Positions 30,458 through 62,071 of a stretch of DNA of 64,000 nt are shown piece by piece. This stretch comes from Pseudomonadota bacterium (GTDB lineage Bacteria > Pseudomonadota > Alphaproteobacteria > Rhizobiales > Pleomorphomonadaceae). Under the pieces are notes generated by a model. That model was not told the origin of the DNA. It did no database searches and saw only the letters and a list, made by a program, of their open reading frames with translations. The stretch's first letter is position 1, and each line of letters begins with the position of its first letter. The translations under genes and the position numbers were made by a program. The stretch is from positions 1 to 64,000 of the forward strand of contig JAGSYU010000007.1 of assembly GCA_018262575.1 (NCBI GenBank). The letters run 5' to 3'.

Positions 30458-31315
30458 TCAACCAGCGTCAGAAAACGGATCAAGCACCTTGCCGTAGCGG
30501 TGTTGGTCCCACAGGGCGAGGATGGCGGCGGCGGTTTCTTCGATTGATCGGCGGGTGACGTCGATCATCGGCCAACCATGCTCCGTGCAGAGACGTTTGG
30601 AATAGAGGATCTCCTGGGCAATCGATGCCTTGTCGACATAGGTCGAATCCTGGCTCTTATCGGCAAGCGCCAGCAGACGATTCTGCCGGACATGCATGAT
30701 GCGCTCGGCGGTGGCGATCAGGCAGACCACCAGCGGCCGCCGGGCAGCAATCACCTTTTCAGCAATCAGGATGCCCGGCACCAGCGGCACATTGGCCGTG
30801 CGGATGCCACGATTGGCGAGATAAATGGACGTCGGCGTCTTCGAGGTGCGGCTGATGCCGATCAGGATGACGTCGGTTTCTTCGATATCGTCAGGCAAGG
30901 CGCCGTCATCATGGGCGAGCGTGAAGTTCAGCGCGTCGATGCGCTTGAAATAATCGGCGTCCATGGCGTGCTGGGCACCGGCCTTGCCGATCGCCTGCAC
31001 ATTGAAGAACGAGCGAAACACATCGAACACCGGGCGCAACACGTCGATGCAGGGAATGGCCGCCGCTTGGCAAGCCTCTTCGAGGCGGACAGCGAGATCC
31101 TGCTGCACCAGCGTGTAGAGGACGATACCTGGCGCCGCCTCGATGTCGGCAATGACACGCTCGATATGACGCACGGAGCGGACCAGCGGATAAATGTGTT
31201 CGATCGCCACCATCGATTCATATTGGGCGGTGGCCGCTCGACCAACAGCCAGTAGCGTTTCGCCAGTGGAGTCGGAAACGAGGTGAATATGGAAATAGGT
31301 CTGGCCGCGCTTCAT
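30458..31315 (-). CDS. ppsR: PEP synthase/PPDK regulatory kinase/phosphotransferase (DUF299, RP001-type)
   Basis: FHIHLVSDSTGETLLAVGRAA; ADVILIGISRTSKTPTSIYLANRGI-type motif. Confidence 0.93.
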   Translation of the reverse strand: MKRGQTYFHIHLVSDSTGETLLAVGRAATAQYESMVAIEHIYPLVRSVRHIERVIADIEAAPGIVLYTLVQQDLAVRLEEACQAAAIPCIDVLRPVFDVFRSFFNVQAIGKAGAQHAMDADYFKRIDALNFTLAHDDGALPDDIEETDVILIGISRTSKTPTSIYLANRGIRTANVPLVPGILIAEKVIAARRPLVVCLIATAERIMHVRQNRLLALADKSQDSTYVDKASIAQEILYSKRLCTEHGWPMIDVTRRSIEETAAAILALWDQHRYGKVLDPFSDAG

Positions 31316-31591
31316 GGCCGGCGTGCTCCGAATGGAAGGCGGAGCAGCATCTCAGATGGCACCACGCTTGGCGAGTTCTTTTTTAGCGATTTTAATCAAT
31401 TACTTGGCTTCCTCTCTCCTGTCGCTGTCCACAACTGGTCGCCTCAAACGTGGATGGGCGTGGACAAAAGGGGCCTGGAAAGTCACCTCCGACTGCCCCC
31501 TGTGGGTAAGCCTGAAATCCGTCAACAGGCGGGCGAAAATGGCCTCGTCCTAACGGCTCCTGTGGGCACTGTGCAAAAGCGACGCTGGCGC

Positions 31592-31606
31592 TTAACCATT
31601 CATTAA
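31592..31606. promoter_or_regulatory. CtrA-type box 1
   Basis: TTAACCATTCATTAA = TTAA-N7-TTAA, followed by C. Confidence 0.7.
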
Positions 31607-31626
31607 CTCTTCGCCAGTCATCCCCA

Positions 31627-31641
31627 TTAACCTTTCATTAA
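31627..31641. promoter_or_regulatory. CtrA-type box 2
   Basis: TTAACCTTTCATTAA = TTAA-N7-TTAA, 20 bp after box 1. Confidence 0.7.
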
Positions 31642-31847
31642 GAATTGCGGCATTCCGCCATCCGTTAAAGTTTTCCACAAAAGCCACAGGCTGGTGGCTT
31701 CGATCCGCCCAGCGTCGGTAGCCGAGAACCTCTCGTATGGTTCGGATTGTGGAGGAACGACAATCCCTGCTATCCCTCGCCTATAAGAAAAAGAAAGACT
31801 CTCTAAATAGGATTCTTACCTTGGAAACGGCGACCGGCGCGACCACG

Positions 31848-32897
31848 ATGAAGGCTGGTAAAGCGACGAGCGAACGTCGCCTCCTCAGGGTCCTCGATGG
31901 CGAGATACTCTGGCCCCCACCGGTCTGGATGATGCGCCAAGCCGGTCGCTATCTTCCCGAGTATCGGGCGACGCGGGCGAAAGCAGGTTCGTTCCTCGAT
32001 CTCTGCTATGCGCCCGCTCTTGCGACCGAGGTGACGCTGCAGCCGATCCGTCGCTTCGGCTTCGACGCAGCGATCCTGTTCTCCGATATCCTGGTCATGC
32101 CCCACGCTCTCGGCCAGAAGGTGTGGTTCGTCGAAGGTGAGGGTCCGCGGCTCGAGCCGATTGACCTTGGTCGTCTTGATCTTGACCCGGATCGTGTTTT
32201 GCCGCGGCTCGAACCGGTCATCGAGGCGGTGGCTGGCATCCGGGCGAAGCTCCCTGAGGAGACGGCACTCCTTGGCTTCTGCGGGGCACCCTGGACGCTG
32301 ATCACCTACATGATTGCCGGCCGGGGCACGCCGGATCAGATGCCGGCGCGACGGGCGGTTTTTGCCGATCCCAACGGTATCGACCGCCTGGTCGATATCT
32401 TGGTGGCGGCATCGATTGATTATCTCGTTGCCCAGCTCAGGGCTGGTGCCGATGCGGTGCAGATCTTCGATACCTGGGCCGGCGGGCTTGACGATGCCGG
32501 CTTTTGCCGTCTGGTGATCGAACCGACTCGACGCATTGTCGAGGGTGTTCGCGCTAAGGTACCGGGTGCGCGAATAATCGGTTTTCCGAAAGGGGCAGGC
32601 GGACATCTGCCGGCCTTTGTGCGGCAGACGGGGGTCGATGCTGTCGGTGTCGACTGGCAAGCCTCGCTTGATTTTGTCCGAGATGCCGTGCAGCCGCTCG
32701 CCGCCGTACAGGGCAATCTCGACCCGCTGCATCTGATTACCGGAGGGGACGCGCTTGACACCGCCGTCGATCGCATCCTCGATCGACTTGGCAAGGGAAG
32801 GTTGGTTTTCAACCTTGGACACGGCATCACGCCGGATGGATTGATTGACAACGTCGCGCGCATGCTGGCTCGGGTGCGCGGGGCCGGAGGGCGGTGA
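31848..32897 (+). CDS. hemE: uroporphyrinogen decarboxylase
   Basis: [66 protein letters not shown]; start choice inferred. Confidence 0.95.
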
Positions 32898-61953: not shown

Positions 61954-62071
61954 CGCGGTAACGCGGCGGCAAGGTTAAAGCGCGTTTAACCATGGATGCC
62001 TAGAGTGGCCGGCAGCAAGAAAGGTCCGGCCGCTTCCTTGGCGGCGGGCCGAATCACCCGTTGCCCGAGCC

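Follow-up and report, generated by a model that had tools for sequence, protein, structure and literature searches.

CtrA sites had not been seen in replication origins outside Caulobacter according to a 2015 review, with Rickettsia as a possible exception (PMC4468827). For Rickettsia and Wolbachia, CtrA, DnaA and IHF sites have been predicted in the hemE-linked gap (PMC1914354), and in Hyphomonas neptunium a CtrA peak adjoining the origin was found by ChIP-seq (PMC7200025). The CtrA of Brucella abortus did not bind the origin (PMC2877005), and in Sinorhizobium meliloti loss of CtrA leads to massive over-replication, though the origin is without CtrA sites (PMC4433202). GANTC motifs are already known from Caulobacter origins (PMC3973325). 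The origin of Caulobacter also contains CcnA, a CtrA-driven small RNA, and hemE transcription there is under CtrA control (PMC8959179). The locus described here bears on how CtrA-dependent organisms outside Caulobacter prevent re-replication; it is the gap between ppsR and hemE in Pleomorphomonas, which is proposed to be an oriC of the hemE-linked type that is very likely bound directly by CtrA~P.

The window, that is the whole stretch of 64 kb that was analysed, comes from contig 11 of an assembly of 4.4 Mb in 295 contigs with a completeness of 86%. Its genome is placed in the genus Pleomorphomonas (order Hyphomicrobiales) because the PpsR protein was found by protein comparison to be 95–98% identical to that of named species of this genus. 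The locus and its flanking genes are as follows.

30458–31315, minus strand: ppsR of the RP001 type (COG1806, DUF299), left flank, transcribed outward; an open reading frame above the cutoff of NCBIfam NF003742
31316–31820, unstranded: putative oriC, the ppsR–hemE intergenic region, with a DnaA cluster, a CtrA pair and the GC-skew minimum of a congener within 4 kb
31821–32897, plus strand: hemE with a probable TTG start taken from the alignment of congeners; above the cutoff of the equivalog TIGR01464
39099–41028, plus strand: parA-like gene and parB, 7–9 kb from the gap; parB above the cutoff of TIGR00180, with ParA-family matches

A divergent gap between ppsR (COG1806) and hemE, by which the hemE-linked alphaproteobacterial origin is recognized, is present here, and hemJ and the parA-like and parB genes were identified to the right of hemE by profile matches. 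The gene order and divergent transcription that an earlier note, made from the letters of the window, had described around this gap agree with the open reading frames and profile matches. Its left limit of the gap (31316) was also retained, with the right limit being moved from 31847 to 31820, as TTG 31821 is taken to be the probable start of hemE instead of ATG 31848 or 31737. This start was preferred because an AGGA lies 8 nt upstream of it and because, in an alignment of 12 congeners, indels in multiples of three are found only 3′ of it and not 5′. The gap so defined has a length of 505 bp and a GC content of 54%.

Within this gap, several DnaA-like sites and one IHF-like site were identified.

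31394–31406, plus strand: IHF-like site AATCAATTACTTG in the AT-rich run; the sole full match to WATCAANNNNTTR in 64 kb
31425–31433, plus strand: DnaA box CTGTCCACA, two mismatches, with TCCACA kept in all congeners
31459–31467, minus strand: weak DnaA box CGTGGACAA, two mismatches, conservation 0.90
31501–31509, minus strand: DnaA box TGTGGGTAA, one mismatch, conservation 0.96
31570–31581, minus strand: weak DnaA-like site TGTGCAAAAGCG, invariant in 12 congeners
31671–31679, plus strand: DnaA box TTTTCCACA, the strongest and nearly invariant, one mismatch, conservation 0.97
31745–31756, minus strand: weak DnaA-like site GATTGTGGAGGA by the candidate unwinding element, with GATTGTGGAG invariant in 12 congeners

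All of the DnaA-like 9-mers quoted in the earlier note, as well as its two GANTC sites (31797 and 31811), are present where it had located them. Nowhere in the window are DnaA boxes clustered more densely than in the gap, and their number exceeds chance: with up to two mismatches allowed, seven of the 64 9-mers found in the whole 64 kb lie within 31250–31900, the expectation for the gap being approximately 0.45 (Poisson P approximately 5e-7), and two of the six one-mismatch boxes of the window fall in the gap. The positions of the motifs in the gap are conserved across the 12 congeners, and the core of the IHF-like site, ATCAA-N4-TTG, is kept in 12 of 12. Across the order, IHF sites were detected in eight genomes against three expected, which is no convincing enrichment.

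A GC-skew analysis, which the earlier note had named as a check of its proposal that this gap is oriC, was conducted on a relative as the genome of the window is broken into 295 contigs. The congener used (G012) is a single contig of 5.476 Mb, for which the skew was sampled over the chromosome and then determined contiguously from 455 to 717 kb. Up to 605 kb the sampled values are mostly below zero and beyond it they are positive, with the other switch near 3.65–4.1 Mb. The cumulative minimum of the 455–717 kb stretch lies at 601,010 and the homologous gap with its CtrA and DnaA sites at 604,857, a distance of 3.8 kb. This gap also has the DnaA-box peak, with eight boxes in 500 bp, the densest of the 262 kb; at other places in a 1.2-Mb sample the count does not exceed six. 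An origin elsewhere, for example beside dnaA, would leave the gap as a conserved divergent promoter region only. Origins linked to dnaA are common among other bacteria, and the skew of the window is shallow around 25–35 kb. It should also be noted that, within the window, positive skew sets in at approximately 26.6 kb, a distance of 5 kb from the gap, and this counts against the gap being oriC. In the congener, however, dnaA is located at 533 kb, 71 kb away, where the cumulative G-C count is −275, far above the −877 of the minimum, and the minimum is found close to the hemE gap with its top DnaA cluster. A dnaA-linked origin was rejected, as dnaA lies away from both the skew minimum and the top cluster, and an origin elsewhere in general is judged very improbable. 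The congener skew, the DnaA cluster and the conserved motif positions bear out the proposal of the earlier note, and the ppsR–hemE gap is almost certainly the chromosomal origin, a putative oriC of the alphaproteobacterial hemE-linked type.

In two genomes of other families, the skew was less helpful. It was uninformative in one (G037), and in the other, a complete genome (G151; loci L255–L274), the coarse skew shows only a broad switch, which is 0.3–0.5 Mb away from the hemE locus. The latter genome may have been rearranged or may have a displaced origin. Since skew performed poorly in both, the origin status of all hemE-upstream regions surveyed across the order (see below) rests on gene order and DnaA boxes; one-mismatch DnaA boxes occur 1.45 times per surveyed region, compared with 0.09 in shuffled sequences.

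The gap also contains two boxes of the type bound by CtrA in Caulobacter.

31592–31606, unstranded: CtrA box 1, TTAACCATTCATTAA, a perfect TTAA-N7-TTAA
31627–31641, unstranded: CtrA box 2, TTAACCTTTCATTAA, a perfect TTAA-N7-TTAA, 35 bp from box 1

Together with the DnaA box at 31671, these are the best-conserved elements of the gap (0.96–0.97 for the CtrA boxes, compared with 0.56–0.60 in nearby spacers), and wherever a congener has two perfect boxes they are spaced by 35 bp. A degenerate pattern of the pair was found in 12 of the 14 genus genomes, each time at a single place and always in the ppsR–hemE gap; the reversed pattern, used as a control, had zero matches. The two genomes without the pattern (G007 and G008; loci L017 and L015) are divergent members which have one perfect box or near-boxes in similar places. 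These two are grouped in the genus yet their PpsR is only 79–80% identical, and G007 has Oryzibacter as its named match. All 14 genus genomes encode a CtrA orthologue which is 84–85% identical to the Caulobacter CtrA sequence used as the query. The genome of the window and the single-contig congener both code for GcrA and for one methylase belonging to the CcrM superfamily (PF01555). It is very likely that CtrA binds both predicted boxes. A third perfect box (TTAAAGCGCGTTTAA) was observed at 61975–61989, 30 kb to the right.

To place the pair in a wider context, hemE-upstream regions were surveyed across the order, with 121 usable regions from 43 families being obtained, of which 100 retain the divergent ppsR. 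A total of 55 perfect N7 boxes was detected in 46 of the 121 genomes (e.g., at loci L027, L031, L158 and L166), and 39 of the 100 ppsR-linked regions have one. Such matches could be chance products of AT-rich gaps, and a perfect box in an individual AT-rich genome surveyed can indeed be a chance one, with up to 0.15 expected per region. The Pleomorphomonas gap, however, has a GC content of 54%; a Markov model predicts close to zero perfect boxes in the whole window, and in the gap 0.004 are expected and two were found. Over the 121 genomes, each of the remaining spacings between N2 and N15 gives only 0–5 boxes against the 55 for N7, and shuffled sequences give boxes in 1.6 genomes. A chance origin of the boxes was rejected by these spacing, word and shuffle controls and is scarcely credible.

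The distribution of the boxes follows the families. At least one box-bearing genome is present in 20 of the 43 families; seven families (f5, f13, f34, f40, f41, f44, and f45) are positive in every sampled genome, and six with at least four genomes each (f2, f17, f19, f23, f31, and f35) are negative throughout. Clustering as strong as this was obtained in none of 2000 permutations. In other families of the class, 4 of 48 genomes have a box, which is near the background of the other spacings. The difference between the order and the rest of the class gives a Fisher P of 7e-5 by genome and of 0.007 with one genome per family; genomes within a family are not independent.

A candidate DNA unwinding element and two GANTC sites are assigned to the hemE side of the gap.

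31762–31820, unstranded: candidate DNA unwinding element, AATCCCTGCTATCCCTCG followed by A-rich triplets and AGGATTCTT, with a conservation of 0.95 and an AT peak adjoining hemE
31797–31801, unstranded: GANTC (CcrM) site, not conserved in the genus
31811–31815, unstranded: GANTC (CcrM) site, conserved in the genus, overlapping the Shine-Dalgarno AGGA of hemE

The most conserved block of the gap is 31744–31830, and the block at 31762–31820 within it is regarded as the best candidate for a putative unwinding element. It contains a TATCC block followed by A-rich triplets (31762–31796), which may be compared with the DnaA-trio or basal unwinding system of a DnaA box, a spacer of up to 16 bp and at least three NAN triplets, for which a scoring program has been published (PMC8287927). 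The AT-rich run at 31376–31405 was rejected as unwinding element, being only moderately conserved (0.84, compared with 0.95 for the hemE-side block), and is better seen as an IHF site because the only full IHF consensus match of the window lies at 31394. The origin anatomy in the earlier note was thus incomplete: oriC itself stood, both perfect CtrA boxes had been missed and the unwinding element had been assigned to the wrong side of the gap. A GGATTGT/ACAATCC inverted repeat at 31744–31768, beside the candidate element, is almost invariant in the genus and could be bound by DnaA or another factor.

In Pleomorphomonas alone, the case for GANTC is weak, as only the site at 31811 is conserved and it overlaps the ribosome site of hemE. 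Across the order, the zone adjoining hemE is an AT peak as well: in the 100 ppsR-linked regions it lies 25–100 bp upstream of HemE residue 17, with an AT content of 0.53–0.60, and its 25-bp bins have 50, 66 and 31 GANTC sites compared with 4–18 elsewhere. Over all 121 regions (loci L145–L254 and others), the zone has 1.39 sites per genome, with at least one in 97 genomes, compared with 0.39 per 75 bp outside it. In other orders of the class, the zone has only 0.48 sites with a nearly equal AT content (0.56 vs. 0.57). Some control palindromes also rise in the zone, by up to approximately 3-fold, with GANTC being the most frequent word, and AT content could be the source of part of the enrichment. 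These counts suggest that, within this order, GANTC sites are clustered in the putative unwinding element, which is hardly so in other orders of the class.

What may be read from the letters is a motif cluster that is conserved, occurs once in each genome and lies at the GC-skew switch, and a possible mode of action can be built on this. DnaA would load at the boxes at 31671 and 31501 and then spread over the weak boxes, IHF would bend the DNA at 31394, and the duplex would open in the AT-rich, GANTC-bearing block by hemE (31762–31820). As in Caulobacter, CtrA~P on both boxes at the centre of the array would block DnaA assembly, and the removal of CtrA as S phase begins would lift this block. 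The gap could also be oriC while the boxes regulate hemE, ppsR or a CcnA-like small RNA, with replication affected indirectly. Caulobacter offers precedents in CcnA and the CtrA-controlled hemE (PMC8959179), and the gap is common to two divergent genes. The boxes, however, lie approximately 180–230 bp from the hemE start and 275–325 bp from ppsR, and order-wide their median position is 0.49 of the gap, i.e., in its middle. Searches of the gap for a sigma-70 promoter or a terminator gave no match, which is a weak negative as alphaproteobacterial promoters differ; a CcnA-like small RNA was likewise not indicated by Rfam (no match) or by a fold z-score of −0.5, which is not unusual, this also being a weak test. 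A purely transcriptional role of the boxes is considered rather unlikely, and the main effect of CtrA here is probably on replication rather than on transcription.

For the order as a whole, we lean towards direct CtrA control of the origin being widespread yet patchy in Hyphomicrobiales, combined with CcrM sites in the unwinding element. If so, some families would have fixed CtrA control and others would lack it, the firing of the origin would be linked both to CtrA and to methylation, and Sinorhizobium and Brucella, the members studied best, would stand only for those of the order that have no boxes. Perfect boxes in 46 of 121 genomes speak against the published view of box-less origins in this order, and the patchy CtrA/CcrM wiring appears to be new as far as the mostly open-access literature shows. 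With a cultivable genus that has an intact, conserved CtrA pair, and with sister families that have boxes or lack them, nature provides a way to compare direct with indirect control. The clustered GANTC sites of the putative unwinding element raise the possibility of a timing step linked to methylation, similar to that of GATC/SeqA in Escherichia coli.

With Cori of Caulobacter crescentus, the Pleomorphomonas gap shares the flanking genes (the hemE/CC0001 origin) and the combination of DnaA boxes, an IHF-like site, an AT-rich element and TTAA-N7-TTAA CtrA boxes in one gap (PMC1914354). It differs in that its CtrA sites are two adjacent ones, 35 bp apart and in the middle of the gap, whereas Cori has five which are spread. 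Its main DnaA boxes are TTTTCCACA and TTACCCACA, unlike those of Cori, and the Caulobacter G-box TGATCCACA was not found in the ppsR–hemE gap. With no G-box and two CtrA boxes, the origin is Cori-like without being an orthologous copy of the Cori layout. S. meliloti and B. abortus belong to the same order, Hyphomicrobiales, which has the conserved CtrA pathway; the S. meliloti origin is without CtrA sites and B. abortus CtrA did not bind the origin, whereas Pleomorphomonas has two perfect, conserved boxes. Rickettsia and Wolbachia are distant and have AT-rich, reduced genomes, with Wolbachia having a different partner gene. Hyphomonas neptunium, which is stalked and divides by budding, is placed with the Caulobacterales; its CtrA site lies beside the origin, whereas the conserved pair of Pleomorphomonas lies within the hemE gap. 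The origin itself would be of an ordinary kind, a hemE-linked oriC, here as a variant carrying a conserved pair of CtrA boxes which is absent from the studied members of the order.
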